A stretch of DNA of 27,113 bases from a virus, in IMG/VR virus record IMGVR_UViG_3300025430_000094, positions 1-27,113 of that record; one strand, given 5' to 3'. The notes under the pieces were generated by a model. That model did not search any database, was not told the DNA's origin, and was given only the letters and a program-made list of their open reading frames with translations. Shown in pieces: positions 1,368-14,737 of this stretch (its first letter is position 1; the number at the start of each line of letters is the position of its first letter). Position numbers and translations under genes: made by a program.

Positions 1368-1906
1368 TAGTTAACTCCGTAAAGTGAGATAGTGCCTGTG
1401 AAGGTTCCAGCAGAAACCGCAAAAGTTAGAGAGTTAATTGCGGCAGTTGATAGCCAAAGACCAGAATTAAGTTGAACATTTCCTGTTGAGGTATTTTGAT
1501 TTGCACCCATTAACGATTTAACAGTTTTGTTTTTGTTGGTATTGGCATAGTCAATAACATCCATAATTCCTACGGTTGGGTAGGTAATTACTGCTCCATT
1601 AGCAAATTGGAGCACATAACCAAAAACTCCCGAAGCGAAACCACCAGCAACCGTTGAGCCTCCATCCCCATAAAGCCTATGAGATACATAATTTGCCGAT
1701 GAGGAATCACCATTAAATTGAGTCTGAAAATTTGCTCCTGCACTTGTGCACACCAAGTTAAACCGCACCTGTAAGGATTTGTAGGTGGAAGGGATACTAG
1801 AGAAGGTGACGGTGGAAACGGCAGAGGGAGATAGTTGCTGGATTTGGTAGAACGATGCGGCTCTAGCCTGCTGGTTAGATGAGGCGATTACTCCAGCGAT
1901 AGGCAT
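1367..1906 (-). CDS. Fibre-tip / receptor-binding-like structural protein (paralogue A)
   Basis: This protein has 179 residues from the ATG at 1906, which overlaps the fibre-gene stop by one base (TAATG) and has GGGGAT upstream. A longer start at 1933 has no ribosome site and would overlap the fibre gene. Shared paralogue features are SAVSTVTFSSIPSTYKSLQV, the FNGDSSSANYVSHRLYGDGG block, SGLWLSTAAINSLTF and a terminal ISLYGVN. It follows directly on the collagen-like fibre gene, so it may cap that fibre or assemble on it. No known domain is identifiable with certainty. Confidence 0.65.
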   Translation of the reverse strand: MPIAGVIASSNQQARAASFYQIQQLSPSAVSTVTFSSIPSTYKSLQVRFNLVCTSAGANFQTQFNGDSSSANYVSHRLYGDGGSTVAGGFASGVFGYVLQFANGAVITYPTVGIMDVIDYANTNKNKTVKSLMGANQNTSTGNVQLNSGLWLSTAAINSLTFAVSAGTFTGTISLYGVN

Positions 1907-3471
1907 TAGACTATATCCCCAGTAATCAACCAAGTATCGGTAGCAAGTTTTAATGCGGTAGCCACAGAGTTAACAGTTCGTAGTTTGGGGCTGGCGGAAG
2001 TGGAGGCTGTAGATATTATGGTAGTTGTTGCAGGAGTCACAGCACTTATAGTTACTTGTCCAGCACCAGTAACCCAAGCAAAATTAAGTTGAGTACCAAC
2101 TGTGTACGAAACAGTGGCATTAGTGGGAATTGTCACAGAAATTGCAGATGCGTTATTAAAAGTTTGAAGTGTAGTAGAGTCTCCAAGTACAGGGGTGTAA
2201 GAGGTTCCTACTTGAGCATTTATAGATGAAAATGCCGTAGCGCTTCCAACTATCCCTTGAACACCTTGTGTACCAATAGTACCTTGCGTTCCTGTTAAAC
2301 CTTGAAGGCCAGTTGCTCCTTGAGTTCCAGTAGTTCCAGTTGCTCCTTGGCTACCAGTTGCTCCCTGAGTTCCAGTTGCTCCTTGAGTTCCAGTTGCTCC
2401 TTGAGCACCTGTAGTACCAGTTGTACCTTGTGCTCCAGTTGCTCCTTGTGCTCCAGTTGCTCCTTGCGTGCCAGTGGTTCCTTGCGTTCCTGTTAAACCT
2501 TGAAGGCCAGTTGTTCCTTGAGTACCTTGAATACCAGTTAAACCTTGAATACCCGTGACGCCTTGTGGGCCCGTTGCTCCTTGAGCACCAGTCGTACCTT
2601 GCGTTCCCGTAAGACCTTGGGCTCCAGTTAAGCCTTGCGTTCCTGTTAAACCTTGGGTACCTGTTGTGCCTTGCGTTCCATTAGTTCCTTGAAGGCCAGA
2701 GGTTCCTTGAATACCAACGGCACCGTCTAGGTTTACTGACCAAGAAGAGAAAGTACCAGTTCCAACACTTCGGTCATTAGTAAATGTAATAGAACCAGTA
2801 CCCGGTGTGTAAGCAGTTACTGTTCCGTAGACAATGTGAGAGCCGTCGGCCGCAACAACAATGTTTTGGCCAACAGAGTAGTTGAGGTTGGTACCGATAG
2901 TGATAGTTGTCGAGCCACCAGTTGTAAGAGCAAATGACGTTGTAGAAGTAGTTGCATACTTATCGCTGGCGGTACCTTGAACGCCTTGAGAGCCAAGTGT
3001 CCCCTGCAACCCTTGCGTTCCCTGCGCGCCGGTTAACCCCTGTGTGCCTGTTACACCCTGAGTTCCTGTTGTTCCCTGTGACCCAGTAAGGCCTTGATTA
3101 CCAAAGGTGCCTTGGATTCCTGTAAGTCCTTGGGCTCCAGTTAAGCCTTGAGTACCGGTAGCACCCTGTAATCCAAGAGTGCCTTGTGTTCCTTGAGTGC
3201 CCGTTGTTCCTTGAGGACCAAGAAGTCCTTGAGTGCCTGTAGTACCTTGAGCACCAACTGTGCCTTGGACTCCAGTTACCCCTTGTGGGCCAATAGGTCC
3301 TTGAGCACCCTGTAATCCAAGAGTGCCTTGTGTTCCTTGAGTGCCCGTTGTTCCTTGAGGACCATAAGTAGTTGTCGTGGCAATCCAAGCAACCCCTGTC
3401 CATTGCCATGTGCGCGTACCATAGGTATACGACTGGCCGGGGGTAGGAGACGTTGGAAACTGTATAGCCAT
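1906..3471 (-). CDS. Collagen-like tail fibre protein
   Basis: This 521-residue protein has four parts. Residues 1-36 are a head with IQFPTSPTPGQ.YTYGTRTWQWTGVAW, a motif often found at the N-terminus of phage fibres. A Gly-X-Y collagen-like tract follows (about 37-165, mostly GTQG/GLQG/GAQG triplets). Then comes a globular insert of about 80 residues (DKYATTST... to ...SWSVNLDG), and a second Gly-X-Y tract (about 250-405). The C-terminal domain of about 110 residues is beta-rich and may drive trimerisation. The chain should form a triple-helical stalk on the virion. Y positions are rich in Gln and Thr instead of hydroxyproline-type Pro, as in other phage collagens. Receptor binding is probably done by the C-terminus or by the three genes downstream. 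Confidence 0.85.
   Translation of the reverse strand: MAIQFPTSPTPGQSYTYGTRTWQWTGVAWIATTTTYGPQGTTGTQGTQGTLGLQGAQGPIGPQGVTGVQGTVGAQGTTGTQGLLGPQGTTGTQGTQGTLGLQGATGTQGLTGAQGLTGIQGTFGNQGLTGSQGTTGTQGVTGTQGLTGAQGTQGLQGTLGSQGVQGTASDKYATTSTTSFALTTGGSTTITIGTNLNYSVGQNIVVAADGSHIVYGTVTAYTPGTGSITFTNDRSVGTGTFSSWSVNLDGAVGIQGTSGLQGTNGTQGTTGTQGLTGTQGLTGAQGLTGTQGTTGAQGATGPQGVTGIQGLTGIQGTQGTTGLQGLTGTQGTTGTQGATGAQGATGAQGTTGTTGAQGATGTQGATGTQGATGSQGATGTTGTQGATGLQGLTGTQGTIGTQGVQGIVGSATAFSSINAQVGTSYTPVLGDSTTLQTFNNASAISVTIPTNATVSYTVGTQLNFAWVTGAGQVTISAVTPATTTIISTASTSASPKLRTVNSVATALKLATDTWLITGDIV
3160..3220. repeat. 61-nt exact direct repeat, copy 1, inside collagen-like gene
   Basis: This segment recurs without mismatch at 3304-3364. 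The offset is 144 nt, a multiple of nine, so recombination between copies would remove or add 16 whole Gly-X-Y triplets without breaking frame. Confidence 0.85.
3304..3364. repeat. 61-nt exact direct repeat, copy 2, inside collagen-like gene
   Basis: Identical to 3160-3220. A shorter pair, about 33 nt, lies at about 2282-2315 and 2480-2513 in the same gene at a 198-nt offset, also a multiple of nine. Confidence 0.85.
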
Positions 3472-3475
3472 TTAG

Positions 3476-6400
3476 TTACCAGACTAAGGCTCTAGTGAAC
3501 TGCGTTCCTGTATCTTGAAGGACGTATAAGAACTTGTTTCCTGTTGCAGTGTTAATAAGGGCCATTTTATTTCCAGCAGTTGCTCCAGCAGAAAGCATGG
3601 TAGTAGTAGCGGCTCCATTTATTTGTTGTGCATTTAAGTCATAACGAAAAACACGAACAACAGCACCGGATGCAGTACGGGTTAAGTAAATAGTGTCCGC
3701 GCCATCGTAGGCGTAAGCAGAACCTAACTGCCAAAGTTCTGATTGAGAACGGGTCATTGGCGCAAGAATCCACTTACCAGAAGGTATGTCGTAAATGTCA
3801 ATAGCGCCGTTAGTAGCGCCACCACGCGGAGAATAAAAATACCTAGCGGTCTTGGCAGTATCGGTAGAGCCCCAGTTCCATAGCATTTCAATTCCAGTTA
3901 CACGAGCAGGAGCACCAATAATGCAATACGCCGACGTTGTTGCTACAGGAGTAGAGGCTGCCGCTGTACCAAGAGTAATAGTGTTAACGGTGTTGCTGGT
4001 TATCGTGTTCTCATACCCTACGTCAACGGTTCCTGCCGTAAAGCGCAGGCGCTTACCGGCATAAATGTTTACAGGCCAGTTGTGGGCAGTATCAGTAAAT
4101 ACTGTAGTAGATGTGCCAGTTGTTACAAGCCCCCATGAGTCAGCAATTTCGTACTTAGTTGTTGTGTCTGGCGTAAACGATTGGGTAGCAAAAGTAAGGG
4201 ATGTGGCGTCGTTGGCTGTAATAGCAATACGTGTAGAAGAAACTGCATAACCAGTTCCTGCTTCAATCTTAAAGTAATGACCAACCCATTGTCCGGGAGT
4301 CCATGACTTTGTTGAATCTACAAGCGTAGTTGTAGAGCCGCTTGTTGCCCACCCGTTGTACTGCTTTCCAGCAGTTTTAAGCATGTCATCCGTACCAAAC
4401 AATTTGGCATCGTGAAGAACATACTTAGAAGTTCCGTTAACGGCCGCGGTAATTGTAGAAGCAAGGGTTAGCGTCGTTGCCGTATTAGCCGTAATCCAAG
4501 AAACCTGAGTTGTTGGGTTAATACCAGAGACAAAGATTGCTACCAAACGACCGACATGCTCATTAGTAGTCCAGTTTTTAGAAGCATCTACAAGCGTAGT
4601 TGTTCCTTGAGAAGATGTGGCTGTTGGGCTTGCGGTAGAAGAGGGCGCTGAGATGCTAAAAGTGCTAACAGCAGAAGGCCCAATAACAGTAAAGGCCGCG
4701 TTAAAGGTTGTATCTGTTGCACAACCGGCAATAGTTACAGAGTCACCAGACTTAAAGAAATGGTTAGATGCGGTGACTACGTTTGCAGTTGGGCCAATAG
4801 CAGTAATTGAAATAGTGCAAGCAGTACCAGTTCCACCAGTTGTTGCGGATGTTGTTACGGTGTAGCCGGTAGTTGTTCCAGAGTTAATAAGAGTTACTGA
4901 GTTAACTGCTCCGGCAGAAGTAACGCTGGTAACAATTACTTGAGCACCAGCACCACCAGTAGATAGAGTAAGTATGTCGCCAATTACATAGCCTGAGCCT
5001 GCGGCTACGGGAGTAGGGTTAACTGAAACTACTCCTGATGCAATTCTTGTAATAGATGTAACGCCAATAGGGGCCCAGCCGTTAAGGGTGGCAGAGATGT
5101 TAGTTGCGACTCCTTGGTCAAAAATTTCAGCAGGCGCCCAGTTATCTGTAACTGCGTCGTACTGAAACATTCCAGAGTTATTGCCCGGAATAAACCAAAC
5201 TTTATCAAGGTTAGGCAAGACAGAGTAAGTAGCGTTAGTGGACGGGGTAGTTGTCCATGCGGGAGTTACTGTAAAAGTAGTTGCAGAGTGAGCAACAATA
5301 CGGCGCTTTTGTCCAATAGCGGCAGGTGTTGTGGAGTCACCAGTAATTTGGATAGTGTGGTTTGCATACCTGTCATTAGTTAGGGCAAGGCCAGCATCCG
5401 TAAGAGTTTTTGCTGTAGTAGTGATGGCTCCTACTTTGGAGACCAAAGGTGATGCCAATACGTTACCTGTACGTTCAAGAACTTGGTCACCAGCAAGAGC
5501 AGCCAAAAGGTAGGTTTGTGGCGTTGTTTTCTGTGCCCATTGGTCGTTAGCAATGTCGTAGTAATAAAAGTTAAAGAATGGAGTAGCGGCCGCAGAAGTG
5601 ACCATGTATAGGCCACCTGTTCTAGTAGTCCAAAATGTAGATGTATCGGGAGTAATAGAGAAAGGTGCGCTTAAAGTTACTGTCTGGGAAGAGATTGTGT
5701 AATGAGTCTGAGAACCAGCAGTTGTTACTGGAAGTGCGTAAGGCGCTGTTGCTGTAAATACCTGTTGGCCCCAAGGGTCATGGGGTTGAAGGTTGTAATC
5801 AGAAATGTAAAGAGTTGTCGTATCGTTATAGATAACACGACGGTATTGAGTGGCATCTGTGCCAAACGTAATGCCAACGGTGTAACCAGCCCATTGGTTA
5901 TAACGCCACTTTTTAGTAGAATCAACAAGAGTAGAGGTCGTTGTTCCGGTAATAACTCCAGAGTCTGCAATCGTGTCTGTTACTGTTCCAATAGTAAACG
6001 ATTGGCCTTGCCCAGTTCCGTACTCAAAACTCAAAGTTTCACCTTGAAGGTTTTGCAAACGCAGGCCGCCAATAGTCAATGAAGTGACTGTAGCAGTTCC
6101 TCCAGATGTATAAGTAGAACCAGCGGTAACAGTAGTTGCAATCGTAAATTGGGAACCTGTTGCGGCCGTAACGTACCCAACTAGGTTAAAAGAACCCACG
6201 CTAGAGGTTGTTCCTGTTACAGCAACGTACTGTCCAACAGAGAATGTATTTGTAGCAGTGTACGTGGCGCTAGTAGTTCCGCTTGCTGTTGCCGCTGTAA
6301 CTGTTGCTGTTACTGCGGCCGGTACTGCTAGAACACGGCCATGAGTTCCACGGCGTTGGGTGTGTGTAATTCCAACGATAGTTGAAGCCGCGGCGGGGCT

Positions 6401-6592
6401 GTTGGCAAGTTGCTGCCACGTGTCTTTGTAGGTGTCATAGCGATAAAGAGTTGTGGAGTTGTAATAGTAAATGTACCTATCCATACCAGACTCAGTAGTA
6501 GAAACAGCAGAAAGCGCAGAAGAGGCTACAGGGGCTTGGTTAAGAAGTTCCCAAAAAGGAAGGTCAAGTTGGTTTGATAACGTATTAGCCAT
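3476..6592 (-). CDS. Large repeat-rich virion protein with kelch-like segments
   Basis: This 1038-residue protein is the largest here. Kelch-like strands occur several times (LYRYDTYKDTWQQLANSP near residue 50, FYYYDIANDQWAQKT, MFQYDAVTDNWAPAEI, IDIYDIPSGKWILAPM, VFRYDLNAQQI near the C-terminus), consistent with one or more beta-propeller units. Between them are about five copies of a 45-50 residue module of pattern TLVD...W....W.G..V.I..G....I..N..TTLTL. There are also one or two copies of a T.TN.FS.GQ.V.VTG module that recurs in the 543-residue protein at 21717-23348. One GSGYVIGDILTLSTGG unit resembles common phage-fibre repeats. A virion adhesin or tail-spike role is inferred from repeats and neighbours. 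The gene abuts its upstream neighbour with no gap. Confidence 0.75.
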   Translation of the reverse strand: MANTLSNQLDLPFWELLNQAPVASSALSAVSTTESGMDRYIYYYNSTTLYRYDTYKDTWQQLANSPAAASTIVGITHTQRRGTHGRVLAVPAAVTATVTAATASGTTSATYTATNTFSVGQYVAVTGTTSSVGSFNLVGYVTAATGSQFTIATTVTAGSTYTSGGTATVTSLTIGGLRLQNLQGETLSFEYGTGQGQSFTIGTVTDTIADSGVITGTTTSTLVDSTKKWRYNQWAGYTVGITFGTDATQYRRVIYNDTTTLYISDYNLQPHDPWGQQVFTATAPYALPVTTAGSQTHYTISSQTVTLSAPFSITPDTSTFWTTRTGGLYMVTSAAATPFFNFYYYDIANDQWAQKTTPQTYLLAALAGDQVLERTGNVLASPLVSKVGAITTTAKTLTDAGLALTNDRYANHTIQITGDSTTPAAIGQKRRIVAHSATTFTVTPAWTTTPSTNATYSVLPNLDKVWFIPGNNSGMFQYDAVTDNWAPAEIFDQGVATNISATLNGWAPIGVTSITRIASGVVSVNPTPVAAGSGYVIGDILTLSTGGAGAQVIVTSVTSAGAVNSVTLINSGTTTGYTVTTSATTGGTGTACTISITAIGPTANVVTASNHFFKSGDSVTIAGCATDTTFNAAFTVIGPSAVSTFSISAPSSTASPTATSSQGTTTLVDASKNWTTNEHVGRLVAIFVSGINPTTQVSWITANTATTLTLASTITAAVNGTSKYVLHDAKLFGTDDMLKTAGKQYNGWATSGSTTTLVDSTKSWTPGQWVGHYFKIEAGTGYAVSSTRIAITANDATSLTFATQSFTPDTTTKYEIADSWGLVTTGTSTTVFTDTAHNWPVNIYAGKRLRFTAGTVDVGYENTITSNTVNTITLGTAAASTPVATTSAYCIIGAPARVTGIEMLWNWGSTDTAKTARYFYSPRGGATNGAIDIYDIPSGKWILAPMTRSQSELWQLGSAYAYDGADTIYLTRTASGAVVRVFRYDLNAQQINGAATTTMLSAGATAGNKMALINTATGNKFLYVLQDTGTQFTRALVW

Positions 6593-12382: not shown

Positions 12383-13948
12383 TTATTTTTCGTAGTCCTC
12401 TGGAACTCTTCGTTGTGGAATCTTTGTTCCATAGGCGTCCGTTACTAGACGAGAGCGGACTGCTTCGTTGCCGATTTGGGCCGCGATAGTTGCATCATCT
12501 AGCAATTCTGGTTTTGTTGGTGGTGGCACCATTTCATCTGCACCGCCGGCGCCTCCGCCCCCCGCGGGTGCTCCACCCGGACCTGCACTAGTTGGCAGTG
12601 AGCCAGTAAGAGCCAGAATGTCTTGCTCAATCTGGGTTTGAATGAGTTTAAGAGCACCGTCAGCCATAGCGTCATCTTGGAGTTCTTGACGAATCTCTGT
12701 GAGTTTCTCAGCAGGGAAGGCTTCACCAAGGGCACGCAGAGCACCTTCTTTAGACTCAAAGCCAAGGGACAACTTGGTTTGGATTTCATTGAGAGCAATG
12801 AGTTTGTCAAGAGGAAGTGGCTGTGGAAATACGACGTTAGAACGGAAAGTAATGGGGTCATTAACATCTAGTTGAGCCACTTGGCCGGGGCGCAAAGGAA
12901 CTGTGCTAGTTGATTCGTCCCAGATAAAAGTCTCTGGTTCTTTAAGAGCAAGGCTTAATAGGATAAGTTCATTGACGCGCTCTAGGCCATGTGCATACTG
13001 AATAATTTTCTGGTGGTAACGGTTCATCAAAGGCTGGAACTGAATAGAAAGTGCGACGCCTGAGGTGTTAGAAATAGGAGTGGCTTGGCCAAGAGCGGTT
13101 TCTGGAACACCAATCATTTCGTGCATGGCCTTTTTAAGCATGGCCAAAAGTTCCATGGCGCCTTTTAGTCCTTCGGCTCCACCCTCAAGATTTTGGATGA
13201 CAGCATCTTTTGGTAGGCTCCAGACTTTGTTGGCTCCCTTTTCAAGTTGAGAAGCCTTTGCTCCAGTAATAACTGTGACCGGTGCAGCGTGATAATTAAC
13301 AATGTCGGCAATGTCAGTAGCAACTTCATTGTAAGCGCGATTAATGTTAATAAGGTCGTTACAGTCAGAAAGACCCCAAGGGCTACCACTGATACGAACA
13401 TTCGGAATGTGAATAACAGGAATAGTGCCAAGCGGATTAGGGCGCGAGTCAATAAGTTCATCGTTGATGTACTCCTCAATGACATCATCCGTAAGAATCT
13501 CTGTGTAGGTAAATACTTGACGAGTACCTTCTAAAGATGTGCCCCAGAAACGGTACTTCAACTTAAAGCGCACAAGACGTTCGCGGTCATGGGGGTGAAA
13601 CTCGGGAAATGCAAAAGAGGAGTTAAGAGGCAGGATACGAACGCGGCCGGGATGGTTTCTACCTGCTGGGTCTCTCCACGCCTCTTCATAAGCAACTTTA
13701 ATAAAGCAGTCACCAGAGACTGTTCCTTGCTGCCCAATCTCCCAAAGGACAGTGGCTTTATTGTTGTCTACTTCCCAGACACGCTCTAACAAGTCCGGAA
13801 CGATGGCTTCCGTTTCTTTTGGGGAACGAAAGGAAACCCCCTTGCCAAAAGTAAAGTTGATAATAAAGTCAGTAAAAGCGCGGTAATAGTTAAGGACCAA
13901 CTGTGTCTCGCCTGTCTGACGGCGATAACTCCAATGATGACCTAGGTA
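12383..13948 (-). CDS. Portal protein, main part (SPP1 Gp6-like), N-terminus in another frame
   Basis: The frame is open from 13948 to the stop at 12383 (521 codons). It resembles SPP1-type portals of tailed phages: LGHHWSYRR, LNYYRAFTDFIINFTFGKGV, a clip/stem region with MHEMIGVPETALGQ and SGVALSIQFQPLMNRYHQKI, and a Gly/Pro-rich C-terminal tail (SAGPGGAPAGGGGAGGADEM). The portal forms the dodecameric ring at the packaging vertex and docks the terminase. The first conventional start in this frame is TTG 13900, which would remove conserved-looking residues LGHHWSYRRQTGETQ. The natural N-terminus lies at 14108-13950 in the -1-shifted register; see that entry and the finding. Confidence 0.88.
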   Translation of the reverse strand, partial: YLGHHWSYRRQTGETQLVLNYYRAFTDFIINFTFGKGVSFRSPKETEAIVPDLLERVWEVDNNKATVLWEIGQQGTVSGDCFIKVAYEEAWRDPAGRNHPGRVRILPLNSSFAFPEFHPHDRERLVRFKLKYRFWGTSLEGTRQVFTYTEILTDDVIEEYINDELIDSRPNPLGTIPVIHIPNVRISGSPWGLSDCNDLININRAYNEVATDIADIVNYHAAPVTVITGAKASQLEKGANKVWSLPKDAVIQNLEGGAEGLKGAMELLAMLKKAMHEMIGVPETALGQATPISNTSGVALSIQFQPLMNRYHQKIIQYAHGLERVNELILLSLALKEPETFIWDESTSTVPLRPGQVAQLDVNDPITFRSNVVFPQPLPLDKLIALNEIQTKLSLGFESKEGALRALGEAFPAEKLTEIRQELQDDAMADGALKLIQTQIEQDILALTGSLPTSAGPGGAPAGGGGAGGADEMVPPPTKPELLDDATIAAQIGNEAVRSRLVTDAYGTKIPQRRVPEDYEK

Positions 13949-13958
13949 CCTAATACAT
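13943..13958 (-). other. Frame-break site in portal gene (TAT TAG G TAC)
   Basis: On the minus strand the sequence reads ATG TAT TAG G TAC CTA GGT. The codon before the stop (TAT) and the first useful codon in the portal frame (TAC) are both read by the same tyrosine tRNA and are separated by only TAGG. A 10-base perfect palindrome, TAGGTACCTA, covers 13943-13952. Skipping from TAT to TAC would give WAMYLGHHW without a gap. Confidence 0.6.
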
Positions 13959-14108
13959 CGCCCAGTTGAGACTGTAGCGATTTAAGCGCGGACCGTGGAC
14001 TTCAAATTCTTCATCTGCAAGTTCAACAAGACCTAGTGGGCTAATTGAAATAGTTAAGTCGCTTGATGCGGCTCTGTACGATGGGGGTGAAAAATCTATT
14101 CCTGACAT
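13950..14108 (-). CDS. Portal protein N-terminal fragment, ends at TAG
   Basis: This frame has 52 residues from ATG 14108: MSGIDFSPPSYRAASSDLTI, then SISPLGLVELADEEFEVHG, then PRLNRYSLNWAMY and TAG (13952-13950). The PRLNRY.LNWAMY end runs into LGHHWSYRR of the main portal frame, so the two pieces read as one protein broken at this point. GGGGAGG lies 12 nt before the ATG, within the 3' end of the HNH gene that it overlaps by 13 nt. It may be joined by frameshifting or hopping, or the break may be a mutation or sequence error. Confidence 0.7.
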   Translation of the reverse strand: MSGIDFSPPSYRAASSDLTISISPLGLVELADEEFEVHGPRLNRYSLNWAMY

Positions 14109-14737
14109 TGCGCTGTAGCACCTCCCCTCTGTCCGTGAGGGGCCGAAGCCCGGGATGCACGTAATGCTCGCACATCGTTAGCAATTTTATCTTTTATTTC
14201 ATTTGTAAAAGGGTTAATAGAGCCTTTTCTACTATTGCACTCTTTGCATGAGGGCTTAAGGTTGTTACGATTATGTAAACCACCTTTTGATAATGGAATC
14301 ACGTGGTCCCATTGGACGATTTCAAGATTTACTTGACAAATCCAACAAGTGTTATTGTTCTTTTGTAAAATTTGGTCAAAAACAGCGGAAGATACTTTTT
14401 CTACAACACCTGTGTAAGAGGTGGCTCTTTTTTGAGCGCGTCTTGCTTTATTTAAGCGCACCCTGTATGCAGACGTTTTAGAAAGACCATGTGTAGTCAT
14501 TATTTTTTGTACTTGCTCAGTGTGCAGGCACCCGCAAGACGAAGTGTTACCATTTTTTACAGAGTATGGAACTAAAAAAGTAGTTGCCCCACATAAACAC
14601 AAAAACTTTTGATAGCAACGGTTTCTTCCGTCGGGTCGTTTACGCATGTGGTACTCATCTGTTGCAGTTAACCGTCCAAAAGTTATACCTATAGGCAGCA
14701 AAGTTGGGGCAGTACGCTTATTAAGCGTCTTTACCAT
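14096..14737 (-). CDS. HNH homing-type endonuclease
   Basis: This 213-residue protein has two parts. Residues 15-71 are a small zinc domain of pattern G..FGRLT...(Y)QKFLCLCG.....NTSSCGCL, often seen at the N-terminus of phage HNH or AP2-type nucleases. The HNH core lies at about 131-171: CWIC, WDHVIPLSKGG with D144-H145, N159, and CKECNSRKG. Such enzymes cut DNA with a beta-beta-alpha metal finger and often behave as mobile genes. It has its own upstream promoter motif (14763-14786) and ribosome site AAGGAAGT. Its 3' end overlaps the portal start, which points to insertion just before the portal. The last 25 residues (ALRASRASAPHGQRGG...) look like read-through tail sequence. Confidence 0.9.
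   Translation of the reverse strand: MVKTLNKRTAPTLLPIGITFGRLTATDEYHMRKRPDGRNRCYQKFLCLCGATTFLVPYSVKNGNTSSCGCLHTEQVQKIMTTHGLSKTSAYRVRLNKARRAQKRATSYTGVVEKVSSAVFDQILQKNNNTCWICQVNLEIVQWDHVIPLSKGGLHNRNNLKPSCKECNSRKGSINPFTNEIKDKIANDVRALRASRASAPHGQRGGATAQCQE
14124..14142 (-). promoter_or_regulatory. Hairpin overlapping the portal ribosome-binding site
   Basis: CCCCTC (14124-14129) pairs with GAGGGG (14137-14142) across a 7-nt loop. On the minus-strand RNA the 3' arm GAGGGG runs directly into AGG, so part of the portal ribosome site GGGGAGG is inside the stem. It lies in the end of the HNH gene. Ribosomes finishing the HNH gene could open it, coupling the two genes. Confidence 0.5.

Follow-up and report, generated by a model that had tools for sequence, protein, structure and literature searches.

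A stop codon inside a phage portal gene that is most likely jumped by ribosomes and is linked to an HNH endonuclease gene

How a complete portal protein can be produced from a gene that is divided by a stop codon is the question raised by this locus. The window, which is the whole 27,113-nt stretch of DNA analyzed, is a 27-kb virus record with terminase and capsid-like genes near the portal gene, and its minus strand reads ATG TAT TAG G TAC CTA GG from 13958 to 13941. The portal split TAT-TAG-G-TAC of the original prediction was found exactly as described (13958-13943, minus strand), and the coordinates given for the N-terminal frame, 14108-13950 with TAG at its end, and for the portal frame from TAC 13948 to 12383 were also correct. 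The N-terminal part (13953..14108, minus strand) starts with ATG at 14108, comprises 52 codons to the putative take-off codon TAT, which is followed by TAG, and is the same as the N terminus in intact relatives. After the ATG at 13958-13956 come the take-off codon UAU for Tyr (13953..13955), the position of which was deduced from the seamless product in relatives, the stop codon UAG (13950..13952), which would be in the A site at take-off, a G (13949..13949) as the final nucleotide of the 4-nt gap UAGG, the landing codon UAC (13946..13948), also Tyr and read by the tRNA for UAU, and CTA for Leu (13943-13945), with which the C-terminal part (12383..13945, minus strand) resumes. This portal frame extends from TAC 13948 to TAA 12385-12383, and its 521 aa from TAC match an SPP1-type portal (PF05133, 4.6e-21; PHROG 64, 1.4e-34) with at least 80 relatives. 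An actinobacterial host is likely because the closest cultured relatives, with about 55% portal identity, infect Streptomyces; their portal is uninterrupted, with no HNH gene directly upstream. Elsewhere in the window, a long collagen-repeat protein (1906-3471; PF01391, 2e-46) adjoins a protein of 1038 aa that matches kelch weakly (3476-6592), and both are probably tail or fiber proteins.

Nearly all of the 80 close portal loci read ...RYSLNWAMYLGHH... unbroken, and 74 uninterrupted relatives read straight through NWAMY-LGHHW, which is exactly what a hop from UAU to UAC across UAGG would produce. Both the NWAMY-LGHH and the neighboring FE-VHGP joins are without length change in these 74 intact loci. 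Comparison of the translated join with homologs, a check suggested originally, revealed seamless relatives and none that ended at the TAG, and inspection of related phages at this codon showed that identical or different interruptions recur. Three of the 80 loci (L002, L014, and L022) share the TATTAGGTACCTAGG of the window; a dedicated pattern scan for this 15-mer found it in 8 IMG/VR contigs, each with an HNH gene, or its visible end, just upstream, and the encoded HNH proteins are 54-100% identical to that of the window. Scans for a stop pattern after either conserved join yielded many more interrupted loci with different sequences, further element types came from scans with the HNH alignment, in which no stop pattern was used, and L262 came from the final portal scan. 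Differing versions of the short stop interruption occur in dozens of related phages, nearly always beside an HNH gene, and 17 further element types occupy the same two joins. This recurrence is far beyond chance, and a sequencing error at the site is excluded, as many independent contigs contain the same or a different interruption. The 10-base palindrome TAGGTACCTA (13943..13952, minus strand) noticed earlier over the site is present but incidental, since most sister elements lack it. The otherwise uninterrupted portals of L023 and L052 contain single in-frame nonsense codons in the C part, far from both joins, and these are background noise or read errors.

A total of 18 kinds of interruption, written here as take-off codon, gap, and landing codon, were found at the joins FE^VHGP and AMY^LGHH. 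The AMY^L join contains TAT-TAGG-TAC of the window, TAT-TAGT-TAC, TAT-TAGTT-TAC (+8), TAC-T-TAC with UUA in the A site (L155), TAT-T-GAC, and TAT-T-AAC, while GGT-TGAATA-GGT (L149) is located two codons downstream of this join. The elements at the F^E^V join are GAA-TAGT-GAA/GAG, GAA-TAGC-GAA, GAA-T-GAA with UGA in the A site, GAA-TAGCCC-GAA, TTC-TGACGA-TTT (L225), TTC-TTACC-TTC with UUA in the A site and an offset of +8 (L230/L231), TTC-TAGC-TTC (L262), GAA-TAA-TAA (L112), GAG-TAAG-TAG, TTC-TGA-CTC, and GAA-TAGT-GTA. L093, L097, and L128 possess two elements each. The A-site codon is a stop in 16 of the 18 types and the rare UUA in 2, with the types derived from the stop-pattern scans being biased towards stops and those from the HNH scans and L262 not so biased; UUA occurs about once per 1000 codons in the two high-GC records. 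The offsets of +4, +6, +7, +8, and +9 cover all three frames. In 12 of the 18 types, the landing codon is one that the take-off tRNA also reads (P about 4e-14 with uniform codons; 0 of 100,000 permutations), and this p-value is inflated by the relatedness of the loci. The 6 types with noncognate landing have the mismatch at codon position 1 in five cases and at position 2 in one. This sole position 2 mismatch, GTA instead of GAA, belongs to L095, L102, and L108, in which the HNH looks degenerate with altered cysteines. The GAA-TAATAA element of L112/L224 may reside in a damaged gene or stem from an assembly error; a further frameshift is present in the portal C part of both, about 50 codons past the AMY^L join.

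Signals for the ribosome may also be present in the mRNA around these sites. A hairpin of 10 bp with one bulge is predicted to end 1 nt before the take-off codon of the window (13957..13981, minus strand), with -10.7 kcal/mol and a z of -3.9 against synonymous shuffles, and in L149 a predicted hairpin of different sequence ends directly at GGU. The stem requires GCG as the Ala codon, which was found in 15 of 15 interrupted versus 8 of 77 intact loci. In loci with an E break, the predicted hairpin is positioned about 22 nt upstream of take-off in a register that differs among lineages. An increase in hairpin stability is confined to the interrupted join and is not seen at the other join (p 2.5e-6 at AMY^L, and 3.3e-5, versus intact loci), with both p-values inflated because the loci share ancestry; some loci, such as L014 and L095, have a weak upstream hairpin. 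A Shine-Dalgarno-like GAGGA precedes 13 of 16 E breaks versus 5 of 76 intact sites.

This GAGGA motif and the stop behind the P-site codon would also suit a mixture of ordinary recoding events, in which the +4 and +7 sites would undergo +1 frameshifting, the +6 and +9 sites stop readthrough, and the +8 sites a +2/-1 shift, and the portal would gain one to three residues. Among the +4 elements, those with GAC or AAC might be +1 shifts that insert Asp or Asn, and UAU UGA C resembles the prfB +1 site. Such a mixture is nevertheless unlikely: it requires three mechanisms, does not predict the matched landing codons in 12 of the 18 types, and lengthens the protein at joins that do not vary in length among intact relatives, and tRNA-Tyr re-pairs poorly at +1 (UAU to AUU). 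A +1 shift as such, mentioned as an alternative for the window, fails for the sister elements with offsets of +8, +6, and +9.

Directly upstream of the portal gene of the window, and overlapping its start, is an HNH endonuclease gene of subtype A (14096..14737, minus strand), which had been overlooked in the original prediction. Its nuclease domain matches PF01844 (2.4e-8, above the cut-off) and PF14279 (1.3e-8). Subtype A relatives precede every visible subtype A interrupted portal and no intact portal. Wherever an HNH locus has a visible join, the break lies at the join matching its HNH subtype: subtype A with a visible join is followed in every locus by a break at, or adjacent to, AMY^L, and subtype B in every locus by a break at F^E^V, with the AMY^L join intact wherever it could be scored. 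The HNH gene is absent from 74 of the 74 intact loci, in which both joins were scored. After dereplication, 22 of 26 interrupted versus 0 of 59 intact loci carry HNH, and subtype versus site is distributed 13:0 versus 0:9. Between the portal and the gene before it, intact loci have a gap of 51-102 nt and HNH loci one of about 625-730 nt, and intact portals of close relatives without the HNH gene represent empty sites. L260 and L261, with 90% portal identity to L230, are intact and without HNH. In L094, L096, L101, L107, L099, and L123, an intermediate-sized HNH remnant or none is left, and the interruption remains. In most pairs at the E join, the N segment is 0-7% divergent versus 11-35% for the downstream portal, a pattern that would be expected from endonuclease-driven copying with co-conversion and that is less clear for subtype A. 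The portal with TTC-TAGC-TTC has a different nuclease upstream (L262:711-1379; PHROG 374 and 3377, HNH endonuclease, 2e-47; no Pfam match), which extends the association beyond a single nuclease family. Genome contigs scanned with the HNH alignment contained no relatives and, therefore, gave no host link.

Codon differences bear on whether the interrupted genes still function. In the C part, close pairs with a common element show 38 synonymous versus 2 nonsynonymous codon differences, the N segment has a dN of 0 in many pairs, and the N and middle segments often combine a dN of 0 with a dS up to above 1, part of which divergence may predate the element. These differences indicate that the portal sequence is under purifying selection. 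The N-terminal peptide is conserved in intact relatives as well, and the portal parts are situated in disjoint frames with a gap that appears not to be translated. A second portal gene was not found in nine records of up to 96 kb, each with one portal split into N and C pieces, nor in five further records of up to 112 kb with one portal each. Damaged genes, either as endonuclease-cleavage scars in dying or helper-dependent phages or as assembly artifacts, would agree with short insertions resembling repair footprints at an endonuclease-linked site, with the further frameshift in L112 and with the degenerate HNH in L095. The purifying selection (38:2) and the lack of a second portal (nine plus five records) oppose this explanation and the scar in a dead gene considered at the outset, as do the same elements across many independent contigs, interruptions that outlast HNH loss in L094, L096, L101, and L123, and the rarity of point nonsense codons in intact loci (L023 and L052 only), leaving it extremely improbable.

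The two parts might instead be made separately, with the N part ending at the stop and the C part produced by re-initiation. An ATG or TTG follows 11-13 codons past the join in some AMY^L-interrupted loci, and the ATG of AMY is kept in E-interrupted loci. Comparison of the interrupted loci revealed no conserved restart codon downstream of the AMY^L break, however: no start codon appears after this join for 73 codons in L014 and 135 in L120, and the TTG at 13900, considered as a possible portal start in the window, is replaced by CTA in two interrupted sister loci, L014 and L022. In double-interrupted loci, a 13-aa middle segment is located between the breaks with the protein unchanged, and the N and middle segments stay conserved. 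Separate synthesis is, on this evidence, very unlikely.

A homing endonuclease and a minimal ribosome-bypass site very likely form a mobile cassette here, which would resemble T4 gene 60/mobA but be far more compact. The free-standing, homing-type HNH gene upstream of the portal would pass between related phages along with the N-terminal segment of the portal and the interruption, and the latter would disrupt the presumed target of the enzyme in the conserved portal sequence, so that the carrier should be immune to its own endonuclease. Such protection, as proposed for T4 gene 60, is probable. Ribosomes most likely jump the portal stop codon: the ribosome would hold peptidyl-tRNA-Tyr on UAU with UAG in the A site, let go, move 7 nt forward, re-pair on UAC, and continue in the new frame, yielding NWAMY-LGHHW. 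Across the elements, a move of 4-9 nt with a stop or UUA waiting in the A site would lead to re-pairing on matched codons, and a hairpin forming behind the ribosome would probably help to drive the forward move. The tRNA-Tyr hop from TAT to TAC proposed originally thus gains support, since it matches the conserved protein exactly and most elements have a matched landing; from these comparisons we infer the hop and its efficiency, as well as cleavage of the target and self-immunity. The features of a gene-60-type bypass, as far as they are readable from sequence, are present. Against the cassette and the hop stand the noncognate landing codons in 6 of the 18 types and the lack of a strong upstream hairpin in L014 and L095. 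ARAGORN found no tRNA, and hence neither a phage suppressor nor a four-base tRNA, within the window, a probably incomplete contig.

The precedent for bypassing is T4 gene 60 (PMC5009743, PMC11194080, PMC2988022), near which the HNH gene mobA is listed at 60.1/39 (PMC2988022) and the interruption of which was proposed to protect the carrier from its own endonuclease (PMC5009743). The gap is 1-6 nt here and about 47 there, and many sequence-unrelated elements, several tRNAs, and an A-site UUA in two types occur here; the gene affected is a portal gene instead of a topoisomerase gene, and the portal elements are known from sequence comparison. Synthetic stop-hops in Escherichia coli (Weiss 1987, as cited in PMC5009743) share the short hop and the matched codons flanking a stop, but these were reporter constructs, whereas the portal elements are natural, inherited, and selected. 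The 2016 review knew of no natural in-frame stop-hop, and shorter matched-codon counterparts had long been presumed (PMC5009743). The Byp elements in mitochondria of Magnusiomyces capitatus, 81 sites in 12 genes, are likewise many short inserts neutralized by bypass with imperfect landing matches tolerated, although a mitochondrial ribosome acts there and the excerpts of PMC5009743 describe no linkage of endonuclease subtype to site. A likely UUA bypass in the terminase gene of Streptomyces phage Hau3 (PMC5009743), by its description, also concerns an actinophage packaging gene and shares the A-site UUA of L155 and L230, while the portal elements mostly use stop codons and are linked to HNH genes. 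For the Corndog tape-measure gene with its HNH insertion, ribosome bypass was considered by the authors, with unusual initiation still possible (PMC4351075); an HNH gene is similarly located upstream of a structural gene, but no stop between matched codons is described there (PMC4351075). A prior description of a phage portal bypass with HNH was not found in the open-licence literature.

So far, T4 gene 60 and yeast mitochondria have been the main examples of bypassing, and the portal elements, if the hop is true, would add a recurring, compact, and testable family. It is likely that they are widespread minimal mobile bypass elements with gaps of 1-6 nt, which would have evolved repeatedly as self-immunity marks of several homing endonucleases, been kept after endonuclease loss, and been tuned by hairpins, with stop or UUA as the trigger depending on the host. 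The portals provide a natural mutant series of 18 types with all three frames, several tRNAs, and four A-site codons, which can define the requirements of a hop, and they suggest a way for a selfish nuclease to leave a mark within the coding sequence of an essential gene with no need of splicing. Such portals will be overlooked or truncated by annotation pipelines. In a cultured phage, Mycobacterium phage Optimus (L250:2486-4500), an HNH gene distantly related to subtype B (28%) overlaps the gene for the LysA endolysin at its start, which is a possible site of a hop or shield.
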